NCBI GenBank assembly: GCA_913774845.1
Contig: CAJYJO010000001.1
Coordinates: 1-41,842 of the forward strand
From: an uncultured Microbacterium sp.
GTDB taxonomy: Bacteria; Actinomycetota; Actinomycetes; Actinomycetales; Microbacteriaceae
Reading direction: 5' to 3'
Length of the DNA: 41,842 nt
The notes under the pieces: model-generated
Databases searched by the model: none
The model's input: only the letters and a program-made list of their open reading frames with translations
Told to the model about the DNA's origin: nothing
In this document: positions 1 to 15,313 of the stretch, in pieces
Numbering within the stretch: the stretch's first letter is position 1
Layout of the letters: each line of letters opens with the position of its first letter
Translations under genes and position numbers: made by a program

Positions 1-105
1 GATCGGTTTCGCACCACCGGGGGAGCCGTCGACGAGGTGTGTGGGGTTGCTCGCCTGATGGCGGCGTTCTCTGATCGCTCGATGGCGCCGGTCAGCTTCC
101 GATGA
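1..105 (+). CDS. possible 3' end of an upstream gene (partial)
   Basis: Frame 1 is open from the first base to a TGA at 103-105 and reads as 34 residues ending SDRSMAPVSFR. It would converge with the glycosylase-like gene that ends at 172. There is too little sequence to name a family, and an open stretch this short is common by chance in DNA this GC-rich. The rest of the stretch up to 171 shows nothing I can assign. Confidence 0.25.
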   Translation, partial: DRFRTTGGAVDEVCGVARLMAAFSDRSMAPVSFR

Positions 106-171
106 CGAAGACGGTGAGGCGAGCGCTGGATTGCTTGGGCGTGGTGCGATTCGCGCATCTCGCGATGCCGT

Positions 172-744
172 TCAGGGGGTTCGTGGGCGCGTAGCGAGTC
201 GGAGTGCTCGTACGGAGCGTTCTGCTTGTTCGGAGCGGTGATGGCCGTTTGCGGGCGAGGGGTGCGGAGCGGCTATGACGTGAACGAGGCGTGCGTTGTC
301 ATCGAGTGTGAGGTGGCGCATGATCCCGTTGAGGGCGACGGCGCCGTAGGTGACCACTGTCTCAAGCGCGGGGAGGAGTGGGAGTAGTTCGCCCAGCGCA
401 CGGCGGCCCAGCTCGATCTCCGATGCGCGGACCGGGCTGCGTGTCGCCCAGGGGATGAGGTTCCACCGGAGGTAGTCGCTTCGAGCGAGCCCGGAGGTGA
501 TGCGGGCTGCTCGAAACGCGCGCGCGGTTGGGCCGGGGTTGTCCTCACTGCAGACCGCGTTTTCTCCGGCGGCGATCGTCTGCGGGCCGGGGGATTGCAT
601 GAGAACCAGAACCCGGCTGGTGGTGCCGCCGGAGAGTGGATCGAAGTTGGGCACGAACCGCCGTGTGCCATCGGGTGCTGTCCGCCAGGTTTCGGCGAGA
701 GCGTTGAGCGTGCGGACGTCTGCGGGCACGTCGAGAGTTTTCAT
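172..744 (-). CDS. uracil-DNA glycosylase superfamily protein
   Basis: This 190-residue protein resembles the compact UDG-like family (UDG superfamily fold), which removes uracil or related lesions from DNA in the cytoplasm. What I see: an N-terminal strand followed by MQSPGP (about residues 49-54), then SEDNPGPTARAFR and YLRWNLIPWA, and a C-terminal HPSPAN, which matches the conserved HPSP-type motif of the superfamily. The start is the ATG that overlaps the stop of the upstream exporter gene as ATGA, so the two are translationally coupled. A repair-type protein coupled to an anion exporter is an odd pair, and the true substrate is unknown. I am sure of the superfamily, less so that it is an active uracil glycosylase. 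Confidence 0.75.
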   Translation of the reverse strand: MKTLDVPADVRTLNALAETWRTAPDGTRRFVPNFDPLSGGTTSRVLVLMQSPGPQTIAAGENAVCSEDNPGPTARAFRAARITSGLARSDYLRWNLIPWATRSPVRASEIELGRRALGELLPLLPALETVVTYGAVALNGIMRHLTLDDNARLVHVIAAPHPSPANGHHRSEQAERSVRALRLATRPRTP

Positions 745-1904
745 GCTGGACGCGGCGGTGCGAGGAGGGTTCCGCGGATGACGGAGCCGTGGAAGGTGCG
801 AACGGCGACGGTAATCCATGCCGCGACCAGGCCGACGTAGTAGATCACGGCGAGGGCCCCAACAGCGGTGAGCCCGGAGTGCAGGGCGAGGCCGTTCAGC
901 CCGGTGACGCAGGTGCCGACGGGGAAGGTGAAAGACCACCAGGTCAGGCTGAACGGGAGGTGCTCGCGGGCGGTGCGGATGGTGATGGCAAGGGCGATAA
1001 CGGTCCACAGCAGCGCGAAGCCGAGCATCGCGAAACCGTATACGAGAGCGACGATGAGTAGCGCGTGGGTCGTGCTCGCGTCGACGGCGGTGGAGGCGTT
1101 CGTTGCGAGGAGGTTCACGGCGGTGATCGACTGCCCCACGGGGCCGAGAACGATCCAAAGGGTCGGGACCATCGCGGCGGTACCGATTTTGTGCTGCGCG
1201 AGGCGGTTCCAGATCAGGGTGATGACCACCAGCGAGGCGATCAGGCTGAGCCCGAAGAACCCGTAGCACGCCCACAGCAGCGTTTCTCGCGCTTGTCCGG
1301 CGGGGGTGTAGGGCAGCAACAGTGCGCCGGTGGAGGCGGACACCATGGGGGGGACGACCGGCATCAACCACCCGCCGAACGCGGAGTCGGGCTTGTTCTC
1401 GTGTCGAGTGAATGCCAGATACGGCACCAGCGCCGCGGTGAGGAGCCCGCCGACGGTACCGATGACCCAGAGCACCCAGTCGACGGCGACCGCGGCGGGT
1501 AACCCGATCCAGTCTTTTCCGAGGAGAAGGGTGCCCGCACCGACAGTGAGAAACGCCATCGGCGGAGCGCCGTAGAAGTGCGAGATGACCGGGTGCAGGT
1601 GGTGGTTCTTGGCGACGTGCCGGTACCGGGTCCAGTGCAGACCCGTGGCTACTGTGAGCGCAACGAGCAGAACAGCGGCGATCGCCCACACGACGGTCGC
1701 TGCGGTGCGAAGGCCGGGGAACTGCAGCGGGAGCGAGGCTGCGGCGACGGCGACGATCCCTGTTCCCATGATGGATGCGAACCAGTTCGGTGTCAGGTTC
1801 GACACGATCTGCGCCGGTCCCTCCAACTCGCGGAAGAAGCGCTTGCGGGTATCCGTCGTGACACGCGTGCGGGCGGGTGCGGACTCAGCAAGCAGGGAAG
1901 GCAT
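741..1904 (-). CDS. TDT-family (TehA/Mae1/Ssu1-like) membrane exporter
   Basis: A 387-residue polytopic membrane protein with about ten hydrophobic segments. It begins its membrane domain with LTPNWFASIMGTGIVA, the typical opening of the tellurite-resistance/dicarboxylate transporter (TDT) family, whose members move C4-dicarboxylates, sulfite or other anions across the plasma membrane. A charged 35-residue N-terminus precedes the first membrane segment. The chosen ATG at 1904 leaves a 63-bp divergent intergenic space to the LysR gene; an in-frame extension to 2150 would run through the regulator and is not credible. Divergence from a LysR regulator suggests control by that protein. The substrate cannot be read from sequence; sulfite is the commonest role for bacterial members paired with LysR genes, which is inference only. 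Confidence 0.88.
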   Translation of the reverse strand: MPSLLAESAPARTRVTTDTRKRFFRELEGPAQIVSNLTPNWFASIMGTGIVAVAAASLPLQFPGLRTAATVVWAIAAVLLVALTVATGLHWTRYRHVAKNHHLHPVISHFYGAPPMAFLTVGAGTLLLGKDWIGLPAAVAVDWVLWVIGTVGGLLTAALVPYLAFTRHENKPDSAFGGWLMPVVPPMVSASTGALLLPYTPAGQARETLLWACYGFFGLSLIASLVVITLIWNRLAQHKIGTAAMVPTLWIVLGPVGQSITAVNLLATNASTAVDASTTHALLIVALVYGFAMLGFALLWTVIALAITIRTAREHLPFSLTWWSFTFPVGTCVTGLNGLALHSGLTAVGALAVIYYVGLVAAWITVAVRTFHGSVIRGTLLAPPRPA

Positions 1905-1967
1905 GGTTCCAGCCTGAGCGGCATCGGCTTCTTTCGGAACGGCGATCGTTTTGGCAGGGCACAATGA
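1905..1967. promoter_or_regulatory. divergent promoter region, exporter / LysR
   Basis: These 63 bases separate the start codons of the TDT exporter and the LysR regulator and must carry both promoters and, by the usual LysR arrangement, the regulator's binding site. The stretch is slightly AT-richer than its surroundings (CTTCTTTCGGAAC, GATCGTTTTGG). I do not see a clean T-N11-A palindrome I would commit to. Confidence 0.5.
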
Positions 1968-2900
1968 GTGTTTGTGAAGACGCGGCGGTTGACGGACCGG
2001 ACCTTGGACCTGGACACTCTCGAGGTTCTCGCGGGCATCGCGGAGACCGGTTCGTTGACCCGCGCCGCCGAGGCGCTGGGGGTGACGCAGCAGGCAGTGT
2101 CTGCGCGCTTGCGCGTTGCGGAGCGGGCGACCGGTCAGCCTCTCGTGCACCGGACGGCATCCGGTTCGCAGCTCACCGATGTGGGCCGGGTGGTTCTCGG
2201 GCTGGCTGTTCCGGTGTTGGAGGCGTCCCGACGGTTGGAGGCGGGGATCGTTGCGCTCAGGGAGCCTGGTGGTGCCCTCGTCGTGGCCGCGTCACAGACG
2301 ATCGCGGAGGTGCTGATGCCCGGTTGGCTGCTGGTGCACCGGGACGCTGCACCTGATGTGAGCGTGCGGTTGCTCGCCGGTAACTCCGCCGCCGTGACGG
2401 ACCTGGTCCGCTCCGGTGCGGCAGATCTCGGCTTCGTCGAGACCCCCATCGACCCACCGGACGTCTCCTCGGTGGTGGTCGCTGTGGACGAGCTCGCGGT
2501 CGTCGTCGCGCCGCACCATCCGTGGGCACACGTTGCCGGCGTCACCGCGAAAGAACTCGCCGACACCCCCCTGCTGTTGCGGGAGGAAGGCTCCGGAACA
2601 CGCGCCACGCTGGAAACCTGGCTCGCCGATGCGGGGCTTCACCTCTCTTCGCCGGCGGCGGTGCTCGACACGACGGGCATCATCCGAGCGAACGCGCGCG
2701 CCGGTATCGCACCGGCGGTGATGAGCTTGCGCACGGTGGACGGTGACCTTGCCGACGGGACCCTCGTCCAGGTTCCCCTGCTCGCACCCCCTCTGACTCG
2801 CCCGCTGCGCGCGGTGTGGTCCACCCGGCCCGGGTCTGCCGCGACAGCGTTCTTAAGCATCGCTCACGGACCCGGCGCTTTCGGTCACCTCAGTCCATAG
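1968..2900 (+). CDS. LysR-family transcriptional regulator
   Basis: A 310-residue regulator. Residues about 14-75 form the winged helix-turn-helix (LDTLEVLAGIAETGSLTRAA followed by LGVTQQAVSARLR), and residues about 95-295 form the LysR substrate-binding fold of two alpha/beta lobes, with a conserved LREEGSGTR segment near residue 202. It starts with GTG at 1968; a second in-frame GTG at 1974 is possible. It is transcribed divergently from the TDT exporter, so it most likely senses that exporter's substrate and regulates both genes. The effector is unknown. The length and domain order are normal for the family. Confidence 0.92.
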   Translation: MFVKTRRLTDRTLDLDTLEVLAGIAETGSLTRAAEALGVTQQAVSARLRVAERATGQPLVHRTASGSQLTDVGRVVLGLAVPVLEASRRLEAGIVALREPGGALVVAASQTIAEVLMPGWLLVHRDAAPDVSVRLLAGNSAAVTDLVRSGAADLGFVETPIDPPDVSSVVVAVDELAVVVAPHHPWAHVAGVTAKELADTPLLLREEGSGTRATLETWLADAGLHLSSPAAVLDTTGIIRANARAGIAPAVMSLRTVDGDLADGTLVQVPLLAPPLTRPLRAVWSTRPGSAATAFLSIAHGPGAFGHLSP

Positions 2901-3145
2901 AGCTACCCGGGCCCTGGGGCGACCTCGGAAGGAACTGCTGCGCGACTGCCCGAAAGCCCTACGACGCATTATCCGCGAGCGAACTGCGCCGGAGTACGTC
3001 GACCGCCCTGCCGACAGCCCAAGCTGACTATCGATCCTTCCGCACCTGGTGACGGCCGTGCCCCGCGGCTGCCCTGCCCCGCAGGCGGAGTACGGAGCCA
3101 CCGCATGCCCTGCGTTTGCCCGGGAAGGCCGGATACGCTGACGCA
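2901..3145. other. intergenic region with leaderless promoter for the RibD-type gene
   Basis: No gene is supported in these 245 bases. A TACGCT hexamer at 3134-3139 lies exactly six bases before the ATG at 3146 and there is no purine-rich ribosome site, which is the layout of a leaderless transcript. Another in-frame codon, TTG at 3116, exists upstream but would place the start ahead of this hexamer. Confidence 0.5.
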
Positions 3146-3928
3146 ATGACGTCCATCGATGACGCGGGACACCCACCGCCTCCCTCGTCCGGCGAAGCAG
3201 TGCCCGACCCCGACGACGTGGCCTGGCGGCAGCTGATCGCCGGAGAGGCGTCGTCGTGCCCGGTGATCGCGTCGATGTACGAGCCGATCATGAACGATAC
3301 GGGGTCTCTCGCGATCGCCCAGCTGGGGCAGAGTCTCGATGGGTTCATCGCCGCGCGCACGGGTGACGCCAACTACGTCACGGGCGTCGAGGATCGGCGA
3401 CACCTGCACCGGCTTCGCGCCCTCGTCGACGCCGTCGTGGTCGGCTGGCGCACCGTCGCGCAGGACGATCCCCGCCTCACCGTCCGCGCCGTGGCCGGTC
3501 TCAACCCGGTGCGGGTGGTCCTCGACCCGTCGGCGCGCATTCCGTCGGAGGCCGTGCTGTTGCGCGACGGCGCGGCGACGACCCTCTGGCTGGTGGATGC
3601 CGATACCGACGTCGACGTGACCGTTGGCAATCACGTCGAGGTGGTCCGCGTCCCCGGGCTCTCTGCACTCAGCCCGCGGGCGATCCTCGCCGTACTCGCT
3701 GAGCGGGGGCTGTCACGGGTGCTCGTCGAGGGCGGAGGGGTCACGGTCTCACGCTTTGTCGTCGACGGCGCCCTCCGCCGGCTCTACCTGACGACCGCTC
3801 CGGTGCTGATCGGCGACGGGGTGCCCGGCATCCGCTTCGACGGGGAGGACCGTCTCGCCGACGCGCTGCGCGGAGCCGTGCGTAGGTTCCCCCTCGGCGC
3901 CGACCTCTGCACCGAGTTCACGTTCTGA
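3146..3928 (+). CDS. stand-alone RibD C-terminal (pyrimidine/pteridine) reductase
   Basis: A 260-residue protein carrying only the dihydrofolate-reductase-like domain found at the C-terminus of RibD; the deaminase half is missing. After an acidic, Pro-rich N-terminus (about 65 residues), it shows the family signatures AQLGQSLDGFIA (about 69-80), VVVGWRTVAQDDPRLTVR (about 107-124) and LVEGGGVTVSRFVVDG (about 194-209). RibD reductases use NADPH to reduce the ribosyl group of a riboflavin intermediate; stand-alone copies act on varied pyrimidines or pterins. It converges on, and its last 180 bases overlap, the gene for a membrane protein of the neighbouring pteridine-type operon. Together with the PTPS homologue in that operon it suggests a shared pterin- or flavin-like intermediate. 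It is not the housekeeping riboflavin gene, since no other rib genes are near. Confidence 0.82.
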   Translation: MTSIDDAGHPPPPSSGEAVPDPDDVAWRQLIAGEASSCPVIASMYEPIMNDTGSLAIAQLGQSLDGFIAARTGDANYVTGVEDRRHLHRLRALVDAVVVGWRTVAQDDPRLTVRAVAGLNPVRVVLDPSARIPSEAVLLRDGAATTLWLVDADTDVDVTVGNHVEVVRVPGLSALSPRAILAVLAERGLSRVLVEGGGVTVSRFVVDGALRRLYLTTAPVLIGDGVPGIRFDGEDRLADALRGAVRRFPLGADLCTEFTF

Positions 3929-4843
3929 CGCGGTACCGTGCGCCCGGCGACGCGCGCGCGCTCGCCCGATTTCGCGAACGCGCGGAACGACGCGTGCGCC
4001 GAGGATCACCGCCCCCGGCAGCGTCGACGCGAGGGCCAGGATGCCGTAGCCGATCGACACGGTGAGACCGTCTTCTGCGGTCGACCCGAGCATCTCGAAG
4101 GCCCACGCCGCGGCTGCTTCCCGGGTGCCCCACCCGCCGACACCGAGCGGAACGGACATCCCGGCGACGGCGACGGCGGAGGTGCTCGTCAGTACCGCAG
4201 CGCTCGGGTCGGGTACGAGCGCAACCGCGGAGACGACGAAGATCGCCGTGAATGCCGCCCACCCGACGATCGCGAGGCCGACGACGGCGAGCGTCTCGCC
4301 GCGCGAGAGCCGCCGCATCCATCGTCCGGCGATGGCAGCGGCGAACGCGGCGATCACGGCGCACCCGGCTGCGAAGATGGGAGCCACAAAGGCCAGCGCG
4401 ATCGACGCCGCCGCAAAGACCACCGCCGTGCCGATCAACCGCTCCGCCGCGACCGCGGCGAAGCTGCTCGCGAGAGCCCGGCGACCTCGGTCCACACGCG
4501 CGTCGCTGCTGTCGTCGGCCGCCCGCAGTGCGTCTCCGGCCAGACCACCGGGGAGCACACTGTTGAGGAACGACGCCTGCCAGCACCTGGCGACCGCCGA
4601 TCCGAATGGGACGCGGATGGCGTGGTGTCGCGCGACGATGCTCCATCGAAGCGCCTGGGCGACGACGCCGAGCGCTCCCAGGCCGATACCGGCGGGGTAG
4701 GTCCACGGCGGAAGGCGCATCACGGCGTTGACGAATGGCGTCAGACCGAAGCTCCATACGAGAAAAGAGAGGATGCCGACCGTAGCGGCCGCCTGCGCGA
4801 CCGAGAAGAACACGTATCGCCCCCGGCCCACGGTGCCCGTCAT
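3749..4843 (-). CDS. LPG-synthase-type membrane protein (UPF0104/AglD-like)
   Basis: A 364-residue protein whose first 300 residues hold about eight hydrophobic segments with the sequence style of the lysylphosphatidylglycerol synthase membrane domain (LRWSIVARHH, SFLNSVLPGGLAGDALRA, MSVPLGVGGWGTREAAAAW). In that family this domain flips or hosts a lipid-linked substrate in the plasma membrane; no aminoacyl-transfer domain is fused here. Its ATG overlaps the stop of the methyltransferase gene as ATGA, so it is the last gene of a coupled operon. From about residue 305 onward the frame is simply antisense to the 3' end of the RibD-type gene and reads as charged low-complexity sequence. Either a real tail was gained by loss of the stop codon, or a small frameshift moved it. 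Confidence 0.75.
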   Translation of the reverse strand: MTGTVGRGRYVFFSVAQAAATVGILSFLVWSFGLTPFVNAVMRLPPWTYPAGIGLGALGVVAQALRWSIVARHHAIRVPFGSAVARCWQASFLNSVLPGGLAGDALRAADDSSDARVDRGRRALASSFAAVAAERLIGTAVVFAAASIALAFVAPIFAAGCAVIAAFAAAIAGRWMRRLSRGETLAVVGLAIVGWAAFTAIFVVSAVALVPDPSAAVLTSTSAVAVAGMSVPLGVGGWGTREAAAAWAFEMLGSTAEDGLTVSIGYGILALASTLPGAVILGARVVPRVREIGRARARRRAHGTASERELGAEVGAEGEPTHGSAQRVGETVLPVEADAGHPVADQHRSGRQVEPAEGAVDDKA

Positions 4844-5700
4844 CCGTTGGGGGGCAAGCTGAGGATGTCGGCATGCCCGACGCGCACGACGAGGTTACCG
4901 CGTCGGATCTGCTCCTGCCGCGCCGCACCCCACACGGCGACGAGATCGGTGAGCGCCGGGTCCTGCTCGACGGCGACGGCGCCACGATCGGCGAGGTAGC
5001 GCGCGAGGAGTGCGGACTGATCGGCGGCATCCAACCGCCAGGGCGTCTGCATCACGCGCACCCGGTGTCCACGGTCGCGCAGCAGAGCGCCGACGTGGTC
5101 GATCGCATCTGGACCGAGCAGGTCATCACGCCGCTGATGGGCGTCGAAGGCCGCGGAGATCGGCGCATCCGCGGGGTGAGGAGGATCGATCGACACCTCC
5201 CCGGTCACGCTGAGGCTCAGCAGGGCCGCGGAGCCCGTTTGGACGATGACGTCGACGAGCACGGCAGCGTCATCGGGGGAGAGCAGATCGAGAAGCGCCG
5301 CGCAGGTGATCACGACGGGTCCCGCCCCGCCGGTGACGATGTCCGGAAGCTCGGCGACGGTCGCGATACGGCGGGTGAGTCGCGAGATGGACGGCGGGGC
5401 GACCAGATCGGTCGTGCCGATGAGTTCAGCGTCGTGATCGACGAGGATCCAGTGCTGCGGCAGCGGCGCCAGGCGATCGGCGAGCCACATGAGGTTCGAC
5501 CCGGTGCCCGCGCCGACGTCGACCACGCGGACCTCGACCGTCTCGTCGGGGCGGGGTACCGTCCCCTCGGTGCGGGCCCGATCTCGGCGGACGAGGGTTC
5601 CGACGAGCTCATCAACAAGGGGGAGAGACGCCTCACGGGCGGCGTGGTCGGCCCCTCGGCGCAGCGACAGCCAGGCGGCGGGAACCGGCCGGGTTACCAT
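4840..5700 (-). CDS. class I SAM-dependent methyltransferase
   Basis: A 286-residue protein with a Rossmann methyltransferase core: VVDVGAGTGSN at about residue 60 is motif I, which holds S-adenosylmethionine, followed by an acidic strand end (HWILVDHD) and a TCAALLDLLSPDD segment at the motif IV position. The ATG at 5700 is favoured because GAGAG lies about ten bases upstream and the overlap with the glycosyltransferase stop is then only 7 bp; an in-frame ATG at 5739 is the alternative. It lies between glycosyltransferase and membrane-protein genes in one operon, so the acceptor is probably the product of the neighbouring enzymes. The acceptor atom cannot be deduced. Confidence 0.8.
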   Translation of the reverse strand: MVTRPVPAAWLSLRRGADHAAREASLPLVDELVGTLVRRDRARTEGTVPRPDETVEVRVVDVGAGTGSNLMWLADRLAPLPQHWILVDHDAELIGTTDLVAPPSISRLTRRIATVAELPDIVTGGAGPVVITCAALLDLLSPDDAAVLVDVIVQTGSAALLSLSVTGEVSIDPPHPADAPISAAFDAHQRRDDLLGPDAIDHVGALLRDRGHRVRVMQTPWRLDAADQSALLARYLADRGAVAVEQDPALTDLVAVWGAARQEQIRRGNLVVRVGHADILSLPPNG

Positions 5701-6752
5701 CGGAGCAGCTCTCGCAGCTGAGTTGCGGCGTCGGGCCATCGTCGAAGTCTAGACCGCGCCTGCAGAGCGGCGGACCGCCAGGCGCCGCGGAGAGAGGCAT
5801 CGTCCGACCAGCGGGCGACGGCGTCGCTCCAGGCCGCGGGGTCGCCGGGGGGAAGTGCTGCGCCAGGCAGCGGGGCACCGGGCGGCGTGCCGTCGCCGAG
5901 CGCCTCGACGGCCCCCGTCCCCGAGGCGACAAGGGCCGGGATGCCTCGGGCCAGGGCCTCGGTGACGACCATGCCGTACGGTTCGACGAGCGAGGGCAGA
6001 AGGAGGAGGTCGGTTTCGTGCCACAGACGCTCGCGGCGACGCCCGGTCACGGCGCCGACGAGGCGGGCGCGGTCGGCTCCGAGGGTGTGAACGGCGCGAG
6101 CGACCTCGGCGGGGAAGGGATCGCCGGGAATCACGGGCCCTGCCACCACCACCTCCCACGGCAGCTCACGAACCGAGGCTAGCGCGCGGAGCGCGAGCAG
6201 GGTGTTCTTCCGCGGCGTCACCGACCCGAGCAGCATCAGACGCGGTGGGCTGCTCCCCGCGGACAGTGCGGCTTCTTCGACGCCTGGACGCACGATATCG
6301 GCATCTACCCCGTACCGTGCCGCGAGGTCGGCGCGCGTCCAATCGCTCGTGCAGAGCACCGCGTTCGCCGCCTCGAGCGTTGTGCGCTCCGACCGGGCCA
6401 GGGCGTCAACATCGATGCGCCCGAGTCCGGACTCGGCGGGGAGGGGAAGGTGAACAAGCACGACGACGCGGATGCCGGAGGCTACGGCGTCCCGGATCTG
6501 ACGGGGCGCAGCGCAGGCCACGATCCCGTCGACGACGACCTCGTCCGCGTGCGAAAGGGCGCGCGCGAGAATTTCGAGGTCGGACCTCGAGGGTCGTGGC
6601 CACGCGCCCGCGACACGGAACTCCGCCACGTGCGTGCCGCCCGCCCGCAGCGCGGCGAGAACCGCGTCGTTGTATGCGCTGCCGCCGCTCGGACCACCGA
6701 GATCGGCGGGGACGACGAAAGCGCGATCAGCGACCCGAGAGGTCGATCTCAA
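5694..6752 (-). CDS. GT4-family glycosyltransferase
   Basis: A 352-residue GT-B-fold glycosyltransferase. The C-terminal nucleotide-sugar half is clear: LGSVTPRKNTLLALRAL, then LPSLVEPYGMVVTEALARG, where the E-x7-E pair of family GT4 binds the donor. The N-terminal acceptor half has a Gly-rich start (DLGGPSGGSAYNDAVL). The start appears to be TTG at 6752, which sits behind GGGTGA and overlaps the PTPS-type gene by 26 bp; no better in-frame start is visible before the conserved fold. It is the fourth gene of the operon that starts at 9001. Donor and acceptor are unknown; the presence of a CDP-alcohol phosphatidyltransferase in the operon makes a lipid acceptor plausible but unproven. Confidence 0.82.
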   Translation of the reverse strand: MRSTSRVADRAFVVPADLGGPSGGSAYNDAVLAALRAGGTHVAEFRVAGAWPRPSRSDLEILARALSHADEVVVDGIVACAAPRQIRDAVASGIRVVVLVHLPLPAESGLGRIDVDALARSERTTLEAANAVLCTSDWTRADLAARYGVDADIVRPGVEEAALSAGSSPPRLMLLGSVTPRKNTLLALRALASVRELPWEVVVAGPVIPGDPFPAEVARAVHTLGADRARLVGAVTGRRRERLWHETDLLLLPSLVEPYGMVVTEALARGIPALVASGTGAVEALGDGTPPGAPLPGAALPPGDPAAWSDAVARWSDDASLRGAWRSAALQARSRLRRWPDAATQLRELLRW

Positions 6753-7116
6753 AGGTCACCCACGCATCGGGGTGCTCGCGAACCACGATGCCGATGCTCG
6801 CGATTCCGCGGTCGGCCTCCAGTCGTGCCGCCAGCTCGTTGGCGATGTGCCGGGCCACGGCCTCGGTCGTGCTCAGCGTCCCGGCGAAGGCGGGGTGCTC
6901 ATCGAGGTTGGCGTACCGCAGCGGATCGAGCACCTCGGACAGATGGCGCGACGCTTCGCCGATGTCCATCACGACCGCGTGGTCGTTGAGGCTGGGGCTG
7001 CGCCATGTCGCCTCCACGACGAGCGTCGCGCCATGGAGCCCCTGAGCAGGGCCGAAGAACGGGTCGGGCAGGCTGTGAGCGATCATGATGTGATCGCGGA
7101 CGGTGAGTCCGAACAT
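6727..7116 (-). CDS. cysteine-free 6-pyruvoyl-tetrahydropterin synthase/QueD homologue
   Basis: A 129-residue single-domain protein of the PTPS/QueD T-fold family, whose normal members convert dihydroneopterin triphosphate to tetrahydropterins. The fold is recognisable from VRDHIMIAHSL (1-16), GLHGATLVVEA (26-36), VVMDIGEASRHL, YANLDEHPAF and the C-terminal VREHPDAWVTFE. His14 and His28 match two zinc ligands, but the third, normally the second His of an HGH motif, is Ala30, and the protein contains no cysteine at all, so the usual catalytic Cys is missing. It therefore probably catalyses a different step or acts as a binding protein. AAGGA lies seven bases before the ATG. It follows the MDR dehydrogenase by 20 bases in the same operon. 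Confidence 0.82.
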   Translation of the reverse strand: MFGLTVRDHIMIAHSLPDPFFGPAQGLHGATLVVEATWRSPSLNDHAVVMDIGEASRHLSEVLDPLRYANLDEHPAFAGTLSTTEAVARHIANELAARLEADRGIASIGIVVREHPDAWVTFEIDLSGR

Positions 7117-7136
7117 GGGGTCCTTTCGGCGACGCG

Positions 7137-8267
7137 TCAGGTCGCGGCGATCTCTGCGGAGGGGTTCGGACGGATGACCGAACCGGTCGGGGGATCAAGC
7201 GGCCCGGGGGTGGCCGCTCGCTTCGAGCGGGGATCGTCGGAGGCCCCGGGATGGGCCACGACCACGCAGCCGGGGCCGATCTCGCCCTTCTCCATCGCGG
7301 CGTAAGCGTCACCGATGTCGTCGAATGTGACGTCGGCGGCGATCAGCTCCTCGAAGGCAGGGTCGGTGAGCAGCTCGAGCGCCGTCGCGAGACGGGTTGC
7401 TGCATCGCGGCGGGCGCGTCGCGCCATGCCGATCCGCGAGACTTGGCTCGCCGTGATTCGCAACCGCCGGGAGTGAAAGTCCTCGCCCAGCGGCACCCGC
7501 GTCGGATGAGTGCCGAACCACGACATCTCGATCAGCTCCGCTTCGTCGCCGAGCAGGCCCAGGGCGAGCGCTAGGCCTTCCTCCGACGCCGACGCGTGAA
7601 ACACGAGATCGCAGTCGTTCATCGCCTCCCCGGCCTCCACCACGTCGAGGCCCGCGCTGATGAGGCGTGCCCGGCGCGCGGCATCCGGATCGACGATCTG
7701 CAGGCGCGCGAGCGGAAAACGCCGCAGCAGTAGCGCGACCGCACCGCCGACGAGCCCGCCCCCGACGACCGCCACTCGGTCGCCCGCACAGGGAGGGGCA
7801 TCCCAGAGGGCGTTCAACGCCGTTTCGACCGTTCCGGCGAGCACGGCGCGACGCGACGGCAGCTCATCGGGGAGGGGCGTGAGCGCGCGCGCATCGACGA
7901 CGTACTGGTCCTGGTGCGGATACAGGCAGAACACGCGGCGACCAAGCAGCGCGTCGGGCCCCGCCTCGACCACTCCCACCGACAGGTATCCGTACTTGAT
8001 GGGAAAAGGGAAGTCGCCCTCTTGGAACGGGGCGCGCATGCGCGCATGCTGCGAGTCGGGAACTTCGCCGCGGCGCACGAGGAGCTCGGTTCCCCGGCTG
8101 ATGCCCGTGTACAGCGTCCGCACACGCGCCTCGCCGTCGCGCACCGGAGGCAGCTCTTCAATCTGCATCCGACCCTCATTTGGAGCAACGAACCAGAAGG
8201 CGCGGGCCGTTACAGCGGCTGGGTGCCGCTCGCGCGGAGCGAACCCGTCGTCGTCCGCGATACTCAC
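7137..8267 (-). CDS. MDR-superfamily dehydrogenase (zinc-type alcohol dehydrogenase-like)
   Basis: A 376-residue medium-chain dehydrogenase/reductase. The N-terminal GroES-like half carries TLYTGISRGTELLVRRGEVP, and the Rossmann half carries DRVAVVGGGLVGGAVALLL (GxGxxG) followed by an acidic VDPDAARRA for cofactor binding. The usual zinc-catalytic Cys and GHE motif are absent, and GISRGTE resembles the BchC-like branch, so zinc dependence is doubtful. It starts with GTG at 8267, overlapping the stop of the CDP-alcohol phosphatidyltransferase as GTGA, and ends 20 bases before the PTPS-type gene. It presumably oxidises or reduces an alcohol or sugar intermediate of this pathway. The last 30 residues are Pro/Ser-rich and poorly conserved in style. 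Confidence 0.85.
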   Translation of the reverse strand: MSIADDDGFAPRERHPAAVTARAFWFVAPNEGRMQIEELPPVRDGEARVRTLYTGISRGTELLVRRGEVPDSQHARMRAPFQEGDFPFPIKYGYLSVGVVEAGPDALLGRRVFCLYPHQDQYVVDARALTPLPDELPSRRAVLAGTVETALNALWDAPPCAGDRVAVVGGGLVGGAVALLLRRFPLARLQIVDPDAARRARLISAGLDVVEAGEAMNDCDLVFHASASEEGLALALGLLGDEAELIEMSWFGTHPTRVPLGEDFHSRRLRITASQVSRIGMARRARRDAATRLATALELLTDPAFEELIAADVTFDDIGDAYAAMEKGEIGPGCVVVAHPGASDDPRSKRAATPGPLDPPTGSVIRPNPSAEIAAT

Positions 8268-9001
8268 GCGCGTTCCAAGGCGACGACGTCCCGACCGAAC
8301 GAAACCGTCAACAGTGCCAAGGCGATCGCGACGGATGCGACGGCCATCGCGGGCGGCACGATCGGAACGAGCGCGAGCAGGAGGGCAATCCCCTGGATCG
8401 CGGCAACCACACGGCGGAACGAGCTGTACGACAGATCAGCCCGCAGCTTGGGGTGCACCCAGGATGCCGCAACGAACACGTAGCGCATGAGGCCAATCGC
8501 CAGCACCCACCAGCCCACCGTCTGCGACACGAGGACCGAGAGCACGAGCAAGAGGGCGGCATCCGACTCCATGTCGAGGCGTGCACCAGCGTCGGTGGCG
8601 GTGCCCGTGCGGCGTGCCACCCACCCATCAACGGCGTCGAGGAGGAGTGCCGCGCTCACCACCGCGGCCGTCGTCCAGGTGCGGACGGGAAAACTGTCCA
8701 AGAGGACCAGCACCGTGACGGCGGCGATCAACCCGGTGAGCGCTACGCGCCCCAGAGTGACGCGATCGGCGGGGGTGATCGTGCGGGGCCGACGGCGCAG
8801 GATCGAGGCGGCGGCGACCAGGGGAACGACGAGGGCCACGGCGACCGTCACGACGATCTCGACGCCGTGCGGGGTGTACAGCAGCGCCCACACGAACGCG
8901 ACGATCAGGGGCAAGAGCACCACGACGCCCACGTCGACCGCTCCGCCGGACCGCGACGGGCGCGCCTCGCCAGAAGCGGTCTTTAATCGATGGGGAGTCA
9001 T
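8264..9001 (-). CDS. CDP-alcohol phosphatidyltransferase family membrane protein
   Basis: A 245-residue membrane enzyme with the complete family signature: DAVDGWVARRTGTATDAGAR and on to LDMESD fits D-x2-D-G-x2-A-R-x8-G-x3-D-x3-D (about residues 121-146), the metal-binding site that transfers a phosphoryl alcohol from a CDP-alcohol to an acceptor alcohol. About six hydrophobic segments are visible, two before and four after or around the motif. ATG at 9001 is preferred over the in-frame ATG at 9028 because TACTGT lies exactly six bases ahead. It is the first gene of the six-gene operon ending at 3749. The lipid or polyol that it uses is unknown. Confidence 0.88.
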   Translation of the reverse strand: MTPHRLKTASGEARPSRSGGAVDVGVVVLLPLIVAFVWALLYTPHGVEIVVTVAVALVVPLVAAASILRRRPRTITPADRVTLGRVALTGLIAAVTVLVLLDSFPVRTWTTAAVVSAALLLDAVDGWVARRTGTATDAGARLDMESDAALLLVLSVLVSQTVGWWVLAIGLMRYVFVAASWVHPKLRADLSYSSFRRVVAAIQGIALLLALVPIVPPAMAVASVAIALALLTVSFGRDVVALERA

Positions 9002-9007
9002 TCCCTC

Positions 9008-9013
9008 ACAGTA
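9008..9013 (-). promoter_or_regulatory. -10 element of a leaderless operon promoter
   Basis: TACTGT on the minus strand, followed by GAGGGA and then the ATG at 9001. The six-base gap puts the expected transcription start at or next to the start codon. The decayed tniB copy begins about 35 bases further upstream, so insertion of foreign DNA stopped just short of this promoter. Confidence 0.5.
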
Positions 9014-9045
9014 ACGCGACGCAAACATCCGCGGCTAAGAGCGCA

Positions 9046-9452
9046 TTCCGACGCCGTTGTCGACGCGACGACTGGCCTCGAACTGATCCGCGACCATGAC
9101 GACCGCACCCGGATCGCGGTCGCACTCATCGGCATGCCCGGTATCGACTAACGATCCCGCCATTGCCCGCCGGTCGACAGCCGGCTCGGCTTCTCTCACC
9201 GGTACAGAAGTGCTCGGCTTCGACGAACTCCTGTTTGTCCTCGACTGTCACTGCAAACGCCTCGGTGCGTTCTCGACCTCCACGACTTCACCGACACAAA
9301 CCGTCGCCGCTACCGAAAGCATCACGCGCGGCAATTTCTGACTCCTCGAACGCCTCTTTTCCCAAGTTCAACGAGTACTGCGCGTCAATCAACTCGAAAC
9401 CATGACTGACGACGACATCGAAACCACCGCAAGCGTCCTCGTCACCGGCTGA
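9046..9452 (+). pseudogene. decayed tniB/istB-like transposition ATPase
   Basis: Pieces in different frames match the C-terminal half of the intact ATPase at 14147-14956 in the same order: LELIRDHDDRT then ALIGMPGID followed by a stop (near 9150), then GFDELLFVLDCHCKRLG, then SITRGNF and a stop, then LLERLF, and finally ASVLVTG before a stop at 9450-9452. The N-terminal half with the Walker A loop is gone. Many base differences from the intact copy show that this is an old, separate element, not a recent duplicate. It marks the left edge of the accessory segment, directly in front of the fluoride-resistance operon. Confidence 0.85.
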
Positions 9453-9809
9453 CACCCGTCATCTGGTGTACCCGGTGCACCGCCACATCGTTCAACTCGT
9501 CGACGAATCCGTGCGGAGTACGTTGCCGGGGCAAAGGGCGACGCCAGCCAGGCATCACATCGCGGCCGCTCCGCGCGCTGGGGAAGGTCAAGTCCCAGCG
9601 GGGGTGGAGATCAGGCGCATCGGATTCGACCGCGTCGTTGATGATGGGCGCTATCGACCTGCCTCTATGACAGGTGCCCGGGTGGGTGCATACTGGTGGT
9701 GTCTTCGGACCCGGCAGTGGGGCTTGCCCGGACCCAACCTCGACACTCGTCGACAACAGTCCCTATCTCAGTTGGTCGCGCTCACGCGCGCCTGAGGTAG
9801 GGAGATGTG
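9453..9809 (+). promoter_or_regulatory. structured leader of the fluoride operon
   Basis: A 357-base gene-free stretch before the first gene of the uspA-gpm-fluC-fluC operon. It holds two notable inverted repeats, one at 9646-9679 and one at 9760-9803; the second contains the ribosome binding site. The conserved blocks of the known fluoride riboswitch (a 5' GGnGATGG and a 3' CTGATG) are not present. A promoter probably lies upstream of the hairpins, but I could not pick a convincing pair of hexamers. Confidence 0.5.
9760..9803 (+). promoter_or_regulatory. hairpin sequestering the uspA ribosome binding site
   Basis: TCCCTATCTCAG (9760-9771) pairs with CTGAGGTAGGGA (9792-9803), giving a 12-bp stem with one G-U pair. 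The 20-base loop contains a further CGCG/CGCG pairing. The Shine-Dalgarno GGGAG (9800-9804) is in the 3' arm, seven bases before the ATG at 9810, so the folded leader should block translation initiation. Confidence 0.6.
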
Positions 9810-10316
9810 ATGGCAGATTTGACGGTGCCGGGCGCAGTCGTCATCGGCGTACAAACGGGTCACGTGCGTGACGTCATGGAAGTCGCGGCGCAGGTAGCCG
9901 AAAAATTCGCCGTACCTGTGGTGTGCGTCACCGTCGATGCAGGGCTGCTGGCTTTGGGAAAGCGAGCGGACGGTTCCGCGATCATCGAGCCGCTTGACCC
10001 GGACTCCATCGACAGGGACCCGCAGCATCTTTCGGATCCCGACCGCGCCGCGATTGATGCGATCGCTGCTGCCCGGTCGGTCGAGGTCGCAGTGTTGACG
10101 AGAGTCGGGGATCCTGTCCGAGCCCTCACCACGATCGCCGAGGAGCGTGACGCCGTGATGATCGTGGTGGGCACGAACACCGGGTGGCATCGGCTGGCGG
10201 AGTTGTTCAACGGCAGCGTCGCTGCGCGACTCACCCGTCACCAGCACCGCCCGGTGCTGGTCGTGCCGACAGACCCCGTCGGGTTCAATCACCACTCACC
10301 AGCGGATCCGTCATGA
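9810..10316 (+). CDS. UspA-type universal stress protein
   Basis: A 168-residue single-domain universal stress protein. The alpha/beta fold opens with AVVIGVQTGH and ends with the nucleotide-binding signature: VVGTNTGWHRLAELFNGSVA (about residues 121-140), a G-rich loop followed by GS, then HRPVLVVP. ATG at 9810 is favoured over the overlapping GTG at 9807 by its spacing from GGGAG. Its stop overlaps the next gene's start as ATGA. UspA genes are among those found with fluoride-responsive regulation in other bacteria, which fits the downstream fluC pair. Its role is probably protective; no enzymatic activity is implied. Confidence 0.9.
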   Translation: MADLTVPGAVVIGVQTGHVRDVMEVAAQVAEKFAVPVVCVTVDAGLLALGKRADGSAIIEPLDPDSIDRDPQHLSDPDRAAIDAIAAARSVEVAVLTRVGDPVRALTTIAEERDAVMIVVGTNTGWHRLAELFNGSVAARLTRHQHRPVLVVPTDPVGFNHHSPADPS

Positions 10317-11059
10317 CCGGGACCCTCGCGCTCCTCCGACACGGCGAAAGCACCGCGAACCAAACCGGGATCTTCACGGGATTACTCGACGTGCAGCTCA
10401 CCACCCGCGGTATCCAGCAGGCCCACCATGCCGGGCTCCTACTGCGAACCCACCACGTGATGCCGGATCTGATATTCACATCGACGCTGCAGCGCGCCGT
10501 CCACGCCGCCGACCTTGTTCGAGACACCCTCGGCACGGACGCCCCCACCACCGCGATGTGGGAGTTCAACGAACGCAACTACGGCGCCCTCACCGGACGC
10601 ACCAAAGCAGAGGCCCGCGCCGAGCTCGGCGACAACCAGTACACACACATGCGTCGGTCGCGGGACGGTCGACCACCGGAAATGTCAGGTAATCACTGGA
10701 GAGCTCTGCGACAAACACCCGCACTGCGCGGACTCCCCGAAGCGGCGGTCCGGCGGACGGAGGCGCTGATGGATGTCATCGACCGCCTCACGCCCGTGGT
10801 GCGGACACGGCTTCTTCCCGCGCTGCAGTCAGGGCAGAGCGTGCTCATCGTCGCGCACGGCAACTCCTTGCGCGCCCTCTGCGCCGTCATCGACGACCTC
10901 TCCGATGCAGAGCTCGCCGACCTCAACCTCCCCACAGGACAGCCCCTGCTCTACCGGATGGACGACGCAGACAACACGCTCACGCCCCGAGGCGGGGCCT
11001 ACCTCGATCCGGCAGCACACGACGCCGCAGCACTCGTCGCGGCAGAAGGCGGAACATGA
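10313..11059 (+). CDS. gpmA: 2,3-bisphosphoglycerate-dependent phosphoglycerate mutase
   Basis: A 248-residue mutase that interconverts 3- and 2-phosphoglycerate through a phosphohistidine. The catalytic LLRHGES is at residues 6-12, FNERNYGALTGRTKAEAR (about 82-99) is characteristic of true mutases as opposed to general histidine phosphatases, and AHGNSLRAL near residue 180 carries the second histidine. ATG at 10313 overlaps the UspA stop as ATGA. An extra mutase inside a fluoride cassette makes sense: fluoride inhibits enolase and causes phosphoglycerates to accumulate, so a second copy could keep glycolysis moving. That role is inference. It is most likely not the cell's only mutase. Confidence 0.88.
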   Translation: MTGTLALLRHGESTANQTGIFTGLLDVQLTTRGIQQAHHAGLLLRTHHVMPDLIFTSTLQRAVHAADLVRDTLGTDAPTTAMWEFNERNYGALTGRTKAEARAELGDNQYTHMRRSRDGRPPEMSGNHWRALRQTPALRGLPEAAVRRTEALMDVIDRLTPVVRTRLLPALQSGQSVLIVAHGNSLRALCAVIDDLSDAELADLNLPTGQPLLYRMDDADNTLTPRGGAYLDPAAHDAAALVAAEGGT

Positions 11060-11559
11060 ACACCCCCACGGACACGTCAATGCCCGATGAACAGCTCCCA
11101 CCCGACCCCGACGTTTACACCCCGGCACCGTCAGCGGCAACGCGTCCGATTCACCTGCGTTGGCGCTACCTCGGGCTGGTAGCTGCTGGCGGCGCCATCG
11201 GTACCGCGGTACGCGAGATCGTCGTTGAGGTCTTCCCCGCTGTCGATGGGGTGAGCTGGTCCATCTTCTGGATCAACATTGTCGGCGCGCTGCTTCTTGG
11301 CCTGCTCTTGGAGGCTCTCTCGCACCGCGGACCCGATTACGGTCACCGCCGCACCCTGCGGCTGCTCCTGGGAACCGGGGTTCTGGGCGGCTTCACCACC
11401 TACAGTGCCCTTGCAGAAGCCACCGCCGCGCTGTTCCTCGACGGACACGGCCTCGCCGGCACCGGCTACGCACTTCTGACCGTGGTGTCCGGCGCGATCG
11501 CGACCGCGGGCGGCCTCGTGGCCGCCTCCTGGATGCGCCCGCGGACGGTGCACGCATGA
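11056..11559 (+). CDS. crcB: FluC/CrcB fluoride exporter subunit 1
   Basis: A 167-residue fluoride-channel subunit with four membrane segments. Family motifs: AAGGAIGTAVRE at the start of TM1, WINIVGALLLGLLLEAL in TM2 and GTGVLGGFTTYSALAE in TM3, the last containing the polar track and sodium-site region. It has a soluble, Pro-rich N-terminus of about 38 residues that its partner lacks. Start and stop overlap neighbours as ATGA on both sides. FluC functions as an antiparallel dimer that lets fluoride leave the cytoplasm; tandem unequal copies usually build a heterodimer with the following gene. Confidence 0.92.
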   Translation: MNTPTDTSMPDEQLPPDPDVYTPAPSAATRPIHLRWRYLGLVAAGGAIGTAVREIVVEVFPAVDGVSWSIFWINIVGALLLGLLLEALSHRGPDYGHRRTLRLLLGTGVLGGFTTYSALAEATAALFLDGHGLAGTGYALLTVVSGAIATAGGLVAASWMRPRTVHA

Positions 11560-11927
11560 GCGCGCTCCTGGTCCTTTTCATCGCTGTCGGCGGTGGTGTC
11601 GGCGCTGCCGCCCGGTTCTTGCTTGACGGCCTGATCAACACCGGCCGGCAATTCCGCCTTCCCGTCGGAACCTTGACGATCAACATCACCGGGTCTCTGC
11701 TGCTCGGCGTCATCGTCGGAGCGGCAAGCCACCTCGGTGCGGTACCGGTCGCGGTGCTCGGCACCGGAGTGATGGGCGGGTACACCACCTTCAGCACGGC
11801 CAGCTTCGAGACCGTTCGACTCGCCCGAAGCGGCCGGCTGACCGCTGCCACCGTGAACGGACTCGGGATGCTCGTCGTCTCCGTCTCCGCAGCCACCGTC
11901 GGCATCCTTCTCGGCGGCGCACTATGA
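11556..11927 (+). CDS. crcB: FluC/CrcB fluoride exporter subunit 2
   Basis: A 123-residue partner subunit of minimal FluC length with four membrane segments. VGGGVGAAARFLLDG opens TM1, INITGSLLLGVIVG is the TM2 Asn-Gly signature, and GTGVMGGYTTFSTASFE is the TM3 signature with the polar TTFST. Its ATG overlaps the first subunit's stop. The two proteins differ enough to suggest a heterodimer with complementary orientations in the membrane. It is the last gene of the four-gene operon; no clear terminator was found after it before the transposon's repeats begin near 12004. Confidence 0.92.
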   Translation: MSALLVLFIAVGGGVGAAARFLLDGLINTGRQFRLPVGTLTINITGSLLLGVIVGAASHLGAVPVAVLGTGVMGGYTTFSTASFETVRLARSGRLTAATVNGLGMLVVSVSAATVGILLGGAL

Positions 11928-12003
11928 CCGTCGTCACCCTTCACCGTTCACAACTCTTGCGTCGCGGGAGCTGCTGTGTAGCTGGCTCGACCCGAAAGGA
12001 AGC

Positions 12004-12124
12004 GTCTCAGGTAGCTGTTGCTTTCTGAGACAAGCCGTCCTGCGGTCGTTCCGCGCTCATCGGGTTCGAGTTCTCGGGACGTCAGCCGTCTTGAAAAGAC
12101 GTCTTGCCGCGTTTTGTCTCAGAA
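12004..12124. repeat. resolvase-site-like inverted repeats
   Basis: GTCTCAG at 12004-12010 faces CTGAGAC at 12025-12031. TTCTGAGACA at 12023-12032 is an exact inverted copy of TGTCTCAGAA at 12115-12124. A palindrome AAGACGTCTT lies at 12096-12105. Several related half-sites immediately upstream of a resolvase gene are the layout of a res recombination site with multiple subsites, which would also let the resolvase repress its own gene. Confidence 0.6.
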
Positions 12125-12161
12125 GGGGGCGCGGAGGGTTTTTCCGAGTCAGAATGAGGTT

Positions 12162-12758
12162 GTGAGGCTTCTGGGGTATACGCGTGTGAGTACGTCGAGT
12201 CAGGATGCGCAGTTGCAGCTTGATGCGCTCGTCGCCGCCGGGGTGCAGAAGCGCGACGTCTTCGCGGACGTCACCTCGGGGAGCAAGACCGCGATCGAGC
12301 GGGCCGGGATGAAAAAGCTCCTCGAGTACGCCGAGGACGGCGACACCGTGGTCGTGTGGCGAGTCGATCGTCTTGGCCGCTCCCTGATTGATGTGCTGAA
12401 TACCGTGAACCTGCTGCGCGAGCGCGGTGTGCAGGTGCGGTCTATTTCGGATGGCATCGATCCGTCGACGTCGACGGGCCGGCTGATGCTGAACATGCTC
12501 GCCACGCTCGCGGAGTACGAACGGGAGCTCATCGTCGAACGGGTCAACGCCGGCATCGCGGCCGCCCGAGCAAACGGGACCCGGTTCGGCCGGCCCCTGT
12601 CAGATCCGGTCGTAATCGCGGACAAGCTCGCGATCGCCGCGGACGCGCGGGCGCGTGGTCGCACCGCTGAGGACGCTGCTCGTCTCGTCGGGTGGAGTCG
12701 CGCAACGCTCTACCGCCACCAGCAGGCCCACGCGGTCCGCGAGAGCGCAGCGATGTAG
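12162..12758 (+). CDS. serine resolvase of the transposon
   Basis: A 198-residue small serine recombinase. LLGYTRVSTSSQD places the catalytic serine at residue 10, as in gamma-delta resolvase; VWRVDRLGRSLIDVLN carries the conserved Arg-Asp-Arg cluster, and the long dimerisation helix (STSTGRLMLNMLATLAEYER) follows. The C-terminal helix-turn-helix (EDAARLVGWSRATLYRH) binds the res subsites. The GTG at 12162 gives the family's normal N-terminus; the frame stays open upstream to 12018, but that part runs through the res-like repeats. It resolves cointegrates made by the transposase encoded next to it. Confidence 0.9.
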   Translation: MRLLGYTRVSTSSQDAQLQLDALVAAGVQKRDVFADVTSGSKTAIERAGMKKLLEYAEDGDTVVVWRVDRLGRSLIDVLNTVNLLRERGVQVRSISDGIDPSTSTGRLMLNMLATLAEYERELIVERVNAGIAAARANGTRFGRPLSDPVVIADKLAIAADARARGRTAEDAARLVGWSRATLYRHQQAHAVRESAAM

Positions 12759-12764
12759 CGGCTC

Positions 12765-14956: not shown

Positions 14957-15313
14957 CCAGCCCCACCGGGCGATCACGGAACACCGCCATAGAGCTGGCA
15001 ACTCCACATGCCCCGAGGCTAGCGCGGGGAGAAGTGACCCGGGACACACTTTGCGACCGTCCCGACGGGGTTGTGCTCGTCCACCCGACGACGAAGGCCA
15101 TCCTCCCGAGAGCGGCACGTCAACGGGCCCGGATTTCTCCCCGCCAACGAACCGCGGCATCAGTGCACCGTGCACACTCCCCGGTGTGAAGTTCGCCACC
15201 CGCGCCACTGTGCTGCCCGGCCGACCTTCCTAGCGTGAAGGGAGCGCGAAGACGCGCACCAGAACGCTCGAATCGCGTCCGACGCAGCCGTCGACGCGGG
15301 GAGGTGAACGACG
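14957..15313 (+). other. gene-free region and promoter of the acyl-CoA synthetase operon
   Basis: About 150 bases after the transposon ATPase look like degraded or end-of-element DNA without a recognisable gene. Near the operon a TAGCGT hexamer at 15231-15236 (in CCTAGCGT) is the likely -10 element; the same CCTAGCGT occurs ahead of the molybdenum-enzyme operon at 26633-26640. A strong ribosome site, GGGGAGGTGA, lies just before the ATG at 15314. Confidence 0.5.

Follow-up and report, generated by a model that had tools for sequence, protein, structure and literature searches.

Two proteins of Streptomyces coelicolor, SCO6650 and SCO6655, have reportedly been studied as single proteins and have been regarded as puzzles since about 2006-2008. 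SCO6650, a homolog of 6-pyruvoyltetrahydropterin synthase (PTPS), is said to lack both PTPS activity and zinc and to possess a pterin-competent pocket, and a Met at the switch site of SCO6655 reportedly halts this GTP cyclohydrolase II (GCH II) at the formyl intermediate. The present analysis deals with seven genes located in a 41,842-nucleotide stretch of DNA from an uncultured Microbacterium sp. (contig CAJYJO010000001.1; hereafter, the window), which encode a SCO6650-like PTPS-fold protein, a RibD-type reductase (family RibD_C), a medium-chain dehydrogenase/reductase (MDR), a family 4 glycosyltransferase (GT4), an S-adenosylmethionine (SAM) methyltransferase, a CDP-alcohol phosphotransferase and a membrane protein of the lysylphosphatidylglycerol (LPG) synthase type. 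From an early vitamin B2 intermediate, this set probably makes a pterin-like compound that carries sugar and perhaps a lipid. We put at roughly one half the probability that the set is a mobile, widespread locus whose decorated pterin-like end product derives from what GCH II, and not GTP cyclohydrolase I (GCH I), produces.

The SCO6650/SCO6655 locus of S. coelicolor is the closest system known: SCO6650 (PDB 3d7j) was the only PDB match to the window PTPS-fold protein in a single-sequence search at 0.001, and the window carries the SCO6650-type arrangement, with the PTPS gene directly after the MDR gene and before the GT4 gene. The comparison was drawn from four Streptomyces loci (L085, L090, L108, and L195) and not from the S. 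coelicolor locus itself. These four loci carry the MDR, PTPS, GT4, methyltransferase, LPG-type and CDP-alcohol genes as in the window; they also have a Met-type GCH II and a creatininase-family gene, and two of them have no linked RibD_C gene, whereas of these three genes the window has RibD_C alone. The earlier note on this DNA had called the pathway undescribed, which is true only by half, since a structure of SCO6650 is available and single proteins of this kind of locus have already been studied.

The cyanobacterial route to pterin glycosides runs through GCH I, PTPS, and a glycosyltransferase. The glycosyltransferase and the PTPS-fold protein are common to both systems; the present set differs in its linkage to GCH II and RibD-type genes, in the loss of the PTPS triad, and in its additional lipid-type genes. 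The archaeal synthesis of riboflavin and F420 starts with GTP cyclohydrolase III, a formamide hydrolase, and a 2,5-diamino-pyrimidinone reductase. It resembles the order proposed below (opening of the ring, deformylation as a step of its own in one clade, and reduction free of deamination), whereas the intermediate would here pass on to MDR, PTPS, and GT4. Glycosylated pterins occur in bacteria, according to a passage of PMC13259868. BrbF of Sinorhizobium meliloti, likewise annotated as a creatininase, is described in a passage of PMC9478397 as a demonstrated formamidase for the formylated intermediate that arises when the GTP ring is opened; it serves riboflavin synthesis, whereas here the creatininase-family gene pairs with a Tyr-less GCH II in one clade and is absent from the window. 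SCO6652 is listed in a table of expression during S. coelicolor development (PMC3610822) and SCO6655 in a correlation table (PMC2853524), in passages that do not study the locus. A search of the open-licence PMC text found no paper on the gene set, which is not proof of absence.

A degenerate scan of a genome collection for the PTPS gene gave at least 582 confirmed stretches, the best 80 of which were kept. The window, these 80 loci, 14 and 38 loci from further fetches, and six plasmid loci make up the 139 loci analyzed; some of these are cut by contig ends, and at least three pairs among them are redundant (window/L135, L033/L122, and L050/L175). Since PTPS was the locus selector, its presence in 139/139 carries no meaning. 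Profile searches identified MDR in 139 loci, GT4 in 136, the CDP-alcohol phosphotransferase in 94, the methyltransferase in 87, the LPG-type protein in 86, GCH II in 68, RibD_C in 64, and a creatininase-family protein in 40. The MDR gene lies directly upstream of the PTPS gene on the same strand in 134 loci, and the GT4 gene directly downstream of it in 131; all seven window families are present in 37 loci and six of the seven in another 48 (85 together). When the open reading frames of the 80 loci and the window were clustered without supervision, seven clusters exceeded 12 genus labels; their representatives are the window's seven families plus GCH II, the latter sharing the RibD_C cluster. 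The next cluster, with 12 genus labels, is a short-chain dehydrogenase; eight of clusters 7-16 were named by Pfam, and clusters 11, 13, and those lower down were left unnamed. The grouping of the genes is beyond chance and recurs across many genera, so the gene-neighborhood comparison suggested in the earlier note did find them together in many genomes. For a gene set with that many PTPS-gene relatives in one collection, and with a partial archaeal form, no described product was found.

In PTPS, an Asp-His pair is catalytic and a Glu anchors the pterin. The pair is lost in the window protein, which reads LRYANLD where true PTPS chains read LDHKNLD or similar, and residues H14, H28, D51, and E114 are kept. 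The pterin-binding Glu (E114) is present in all 25 PTPS rows compared, and the His at the third zinc position in 13 of them, those of more distant loci. The domain itself is clearly recognized (80.1 bits, Pfam cut-off 22.4), and the protein scores under the QueD and 6PTHBS cut-offs of NCBIfam. The motifs CxxxxxHGH, CxxxHGH, or ExxHGH mark the PTPS subfamilies in a passage of PMC5041015; the window protein reads FGPAQGLHGAT, which corresponds to none of them, with no motif Cys and with the third zinc His gone (HGA). The residue comparison thus bears out the description of this protein as cysteine-free. The genome contains no other PTPS-family match, and its FolE, FolB, and FolK genes are grouped together on another contig.

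There is no linked GCH II gene in the window. The earlier note stated that related sets in other actinobacteria carry a GCH II paralog, and 68 loci (L090 and L075 are examples) do have a linked one. The only GCH II match in the genome is a RibBA-type protein (DHBP_synthase plus GTP_cyclohydro2) of the Tyr type on another contig, so a dedicated GCH II is lacking from the rest of the genome as well; since the window has none and the genome has one RibBA, this housekeeping enzyme would supply the substrate here. In 8 of 81 loci (L035, L040, L044, L059, L061, L069, L073, and L082), GCH II and RibD_C share one open reading frame, an apparent fusion which argues for consecutive steps. At the switch position, which we take to be the equivalent of E. 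coli Tyr105, 31 of the linked GCH II enzymes have Tyr, and none of their loci carry a creatininase-family gene (0/31). The other 37 have Met (21), His (11), Leu (3), or Gln (2), and all of their loci carry one (37/37). Seven loci outside the 68 agree, six with Tyr and no creatininase gene (L181, L185, L186, L187, L189, and L194) and one with Met and such a gene (L195); three more loci have the creatininase gene with no GCH II in view. RibD_C and creatininase are not strict alternatives, as five loci carry both.

The best PDB profile match of the RibD-like protein is a 2,5-diamino-6-ribosylamino-4(3H)-pyrimidinone 5'-phosphate reductase (6p8c, E 3.3e-51), and its scores lie below the cut-offs of the NCBIfam families listed. 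Pfam detected RibD_C and no deaminase domain, in line with the deaminase-less reductase previously described. Deaminase and lumazine/riboflavin synthase genes were not found by Pfam among the seven, which are not a riboflavin biosynthesis operon; a two-domain RibD is present near the RibBA of this genome, on another contig. The MDR dehydrogenase had no Pfam match at 0.01 and gave weak NCBIfam matches (BchC, 6.8e-9, far under the cut-off). Its predicted fold is, with confidence, that of an MDR enzyme (mean pLDDT 87.3), and a Foldseek search with the model returned butanediol, xylitol, and sorbitol dehydrogenases, with TarJ at rank 24. The MDR profile matched L-iditol 2-dehydrogenase (4oh1, 1.3e-14) in the PDB, with xylitol and sorbitol dehydrogenases lower down.

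From the gene content, the linkage, the active-site losses, and the plasmid segment, all of which were observed, we infer every reaction of the following pathway as well as its product. GCH II would open GTP to give 2,5-diamino-6-ribosylamino-4(3H)-pyrimidinone 5'-phosphate; in one clade, the dedicated GCH II probably goes no further than the formyl compound, and a creatininase-family deformylase would assist it. In riboflavin synthesis, bacteria deaminate before reducing and archaea reduce first, and a separate reductase would therefore be needed. The deaminase-less RibD reductase would convert the ribosyl into a ribityl chain in the archaeal order, keeping the 2-amino group; by reducing without deaminating, it would thus preserve the 2-amino-4-oxo edge that the Glu of the PTPS-fold protein binds. 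The polyol-dehydrogenase-like MDR would then oxidize the ribityl chain, with C2' as the simplest site, giving a ketone at the oxidation level of the GCH I Amadori product, on which the 5-amino group could close to form a dihydroneopterin-type ring. The PTPS-fold protein would hold the 2-amino-4-oxo ring via its conserved Glu and guide closure or isomerization, and would not perform the PTPS reaction. GT4 would glycosylate the side chain, the methyltransferase would add a methyl group, the CDP-alcohol phosphotransferase phospho(lipid) groups, and the LPG-type protein might shift the product within the membrane or to its other side. What the comparison offers is a substrate to start from, a prediction of how the steps follow one another, a candidate partner for formyl-retaining GTP cyclohydrolases, and small minimal sets for reconstitution. 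As to the idea of a single pathway joining pteridine-type and lipid- or glyco-type enzymes, the co-occurrence and the GCH II linkage (68/139) support it, and the interpretation as a whole is supported in part.

A reduced form of the set was found further afield. When 296 genomes of the phylum were searched with the MDR profile, 39 matched at 1e-40, and the RibD_C-MDR-PTPS-GT4 core is present in 11 of the 14 loci from outside the window's class, accompanied by GCH II in five (L181, L185, L186, L187, and L189); the remaining three (L188, L192, and L193) have the dehydrogenase alone. The CDP-alcohol, LPG-type, and methyltransferase profiles had no match in these 14 outer loci, and methyltransferase domains adjoin GT4 in two frames tested among them. 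In all seven genomes of family f56 (four genera), no more than about 1.6 kb separates the MDR gene from the sole match to FolB, the dihydroneopterin aldolase (loci L180-L184, L190, and L191), and FolK and FolE are located away from the core; FolB lies by FolK in the window's genome and in three from other families. Through this adjacency, the core is connected with dihydroneopterin chemistry, though in a single family.

Several observations weigh against the proposed pterin pathway. The FolB link is confined to that one family of four genera, and the lipid product may be a branch trait, as judged from the missing CDP-alcohol, LPG-type, and methyltransferase profile matches in the outer loci. 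In the tree of the 68 GCH II sequences and the genome's own, the creatininase label needs a single change (support 98/85); because of this single origin, the pairing with the Tyr-less switch counts as one event and not as 68, and repeated independent evolution of the pairing was rejected. According to this tree, the pairing arose once, and the switch residue drifted afterwards. RibD_C is linked in 30 of the 31 Tyr loci versus 5 of the 37 non-Tyr loci. In 12 of 12 such non-Tyr genomes of genus g30, the best RibD_C match elsewhere reaches at most 167 bits, in frames of 321-591 aa resembling the two-domain RibD, and the reduction step is insecure in g30 because only frames of that size are present; some other non-Tyr genomes have an unlinked RibD_C frame of 234-285 aa scoring 172-198 bits. 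The one creatininase protein scored gave 29.6 bits with ArfB (cut-off 180) and 136 with MftE (cut-off 172). No Cys is present in the conserved columns of the MDR alignments (82 rows; 22 rows), nor, consequently, the Cys/His ligands of a catalytic zinc; because of this, the protein is not a classical zinc dehydrogenase. Zinc-free MDRs are often reductases, and the enzyme may either reduce or oxidize. Lastly, Arthrobacter-type loci link MDR, PTPS, and GT4 alone, and in both genomes of this type that were searched (2/2) the RibD_C match reaches only about 80 bits; a CDP-alcohol phosphotransferase relative is located elsewhere in two Arthrobacter-type genomes, with no other gene of the cluster found in the 20 kb covered there.

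Taken to its full extent, the proposal would amount to a second route to neopterin-type pterins bypassing GCH I, in which GCH II or IIa opens GTP, reduction and re-oxidation replace the Amadori rearrangement, a triad-less PTPS-fold protein closes or tunes the ring, and glycosylation then leads, in some lineages, to a membrane lipid head group, the locus being plasmid-mobile, having crossed phyla, and having reached the haloarchaea. In this complete form, the idea is doubtful. If the ring closure is true, it would provide a second way to make pterins, and if a lipid is made, its head group would be new to membranes.

Among the competing explanations, the one that survives best, unlikely as we hold it to be, sees the PTPS-fold protein as a non-catalytic binder, either carrier or sensor, with the open diaminopyrimidine-ribitol being glycosylated and lipid-linked without any ring closure. 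This would suit the loss of the Cys, the Asp-His pair, and the third zinc ligand in the window's branch, and the S. coelicolor homolog is reportedly inactive as a PTPS; however, the His at the third zinc position in the 13 divergent rows suggests catalysis at least there, and the MDR gene is present in every locus (139/139). A less probable reading is that of a flavin-, lumazine-, or deazaflavin-like compound, for which the ribityl-diaminopyrimidine would be handled in the manner of riboflavin or F0 synthesis before a sugar and a lipid are attached. GCH II and RibD_C are indeed riboflavin-type enzymes, but none of the clusters exceeding 12 genus labels is a further flavin-type family, the reductase is devoid of a deaminase domain, the pterin-binding Glu is invariant in the 25 PTPS-fold rows, and FolB adjoins the core in one family; the flavin-like product mentioned in the earlier note is therefore disfavored. 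Still less credit can be given to a phosphatidylinositol-like glycolipid pathway with RibD- and PTPS-type proteins recruited for unrelated steps. The CDP-alcohol transferase, GT4, methyltransferase, and LPG-type protein do resemble a glycolipid set, and the first of these weakly matches the structures of a cholinephosphotransferase, PgsA, and a phosphatidylinositol synthase, but it is MDR-PTPS-GT4 that is near-invariant, the reduced loci keep RibD_C, MDR, PTPS, and GT4 where the CDP-alcohol and LPG-type profiles found nothing, and GCH II or IIa is linked in many loci. A 7-deazapurine product was dismissed, as no such family figures among the clusters with more than 12 genus labels, beyond which no further search was made.

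The CDP-alcohol phosphotransferase motif is DxxDGxxAR(x8)GxxxDxxxD, and it is complete in the window (D131xxDGxxAR, G148xxxD152xxxD156), residues D131, D134, G135, A138, R139, G148, D152, and D156 being invariant in 19 rows. The methyltransferase scores 20.7 bits with Pfam Methyltransf_25, under the cut-off of 27, and shows invariant D74, G76, and G78-T79-G80 in 16 rows; its AlphaFold model (pLDDT 92) matches methyltransferases in the PDB, and the query TM-scores of the PDB matches listed (0.33-0.52) were uninformative as to its substrate. LPG_synthase_TM alone was found in the 364-aa frame of the LPG-type gene, and no MprF aminoacyl transfer domain. This gene (3749-4843) and its plasmid counterpart (L135:32756-33592) align with one gap and differ in their annotated ends; the LPG-type protein of L033 likewise carries a C-terminal extension. 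A possible lipid anchoring or export is suggested by the presence of the CDP-alcohol and LPG-type genes (94/139 and 86/139 loci), and the lipid part is the least universal portion of the gene set.

The locus is widely distributed. The PTPS protein is matched in 43 of 296 sampled genomes of the window's class and in 38 of 198 of its genus, two of the latter only at E ~1e-4; all 10 loci fetched from the genus have the seven families, and none has a linked GCH II (0/10). Outside Actinomycetota, the locus was identified in records of Agrobacterium, Martelella, Methylosinus, Palleronia, and Thiodictyon, which include Pseudomonadota, and in contigs labeled as metagenome-assembled genomes (MAGs) of Myxococcales, Planctomycetota, and Saprospiraceae. 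In one contig labeled as a Solirubrobacterales MAG (L034), which is perhaps mis-binned, the operon shows 73-84% DNA identity to the window. Haloarcula plasmids carry a partial form of the set: that of strain GH36 has the CDP-alcohol phosphotransferase, GTP cyclohydrolase IIa, MDR, PTPS, and methyltransferase genes, all in one direction, and pNG700 has MDR, PTPS, GT4, a methyltransferase-like gene, and the CDP-alcohol phosphotransferase, with a creatininase gene 5 kb from MDR. At L136:8229-10426, on a Haloarcula plasmid, the position directly before MDR-PTPS is occupied by the archaeal GTP cyclohydrolase IIa instead of GCH II. RibD_C was found in neither Haloarcula stretch, which the archaeal reduce-first order would explain.

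A segment of the window is common to plasmid pSGAir0570_2 of Microbacterium sp. SGAir0570 (Table 1), the seven genes showing 99.7-100% DNA identity, and recombinase and Mu-type transposase frames lie within it (12018-14147). The rest of the window (15009-41842) has no megablast match on this plasmid, and bases near 38-40 kb match the sucC/sucD genes of other records; the contig may therefore be chromosomal with an acquired segment. These matches suggest that the segment with the operon is transferred from one replicon to another.

The seven genes at 3146-9028 are intact and open, six on the minus strand and one convergent on the plus strand; their content, order, and tight coupling were as the earlier note had stated. 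Pfam named the family of six of them (RibD_C, LPG_synthase_TM, weakly Methyltransf_25, GT4, PTPS, and CDP-OH_P_transf). The CDP-alcohol phosphotransferase and MDR genes overlap by 4 bases, as do the methyltransferase and LPG-type genes; MDR and PTPS are separated by 20 bases, and PTPS/GT4 and GT4/methyltransferase overlap, given the starts listed. The RibD-like gene has an in-frame ATG at 3146 within a longer frame opening with TTG at 3116, and its 3' end overlaps the C-terminal part of the LPG-type frame on the other strand by at most 180 bases.

Table 1. Positions of the genes of the locus and of the segment shared with a plasmid, in window coordinates.
Feature	Position	Strand	Evidence and remarks
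RibD_C reductase without deaminase domain, 260 aa	3146..3928	+	Pfam RibD_C 7.7e-34; convergent with the operon
LPG_synthase_TM / flippase-like membrane protein, no synthase domain found	3749..4843	-	Pfam 6.4e-24
Class I SAM methyltransferase	4840..5739	-	Weak Pfam Methyltransf_25 6.8e-4
GT4 glycosyltransferase	5694..6752	-	Pfam Glyco_trans_1_4 1e-17; TTG or later start
PTPS-fold protein, SCO6650-like	6727..7116	-	Pfam PTPS 1.6e-22; 3d7j E 4e-29
MDR dehydrogenase, polyol-dehydrogenase-like fold	7137..8267	-	PDB profile matches and structure model
CDP-alcohol phosphotransferase, first gene of the operon	8264..9028	-	Pfam CDP-OH_P_transf 1.2e-13; start at 9028, 9001, or internal
Segment common to plasmid pSGAir0570_2 (NZ_CP027930.2)	40..15008		97-99% DNA identity

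A sigma-70 scan of 8900-9900 gave no minus-strand site, which leaves the leaderless promoter previously proposed for the operon unsupported. No Rfam family was detected at gathering scores anywhere in the window; because Rfam finds none, the tRNA-Ile called by ARAGORN at 13519-13592, inside the transposase frame, is probably a false call. At 9807-11927, where Rfam likewise gives no riboswitch, the plasmid annotation names a universal stress protein, a phosphoglycerate-mutase-like gene, and two CrcB fluoride-channel genes in a row.

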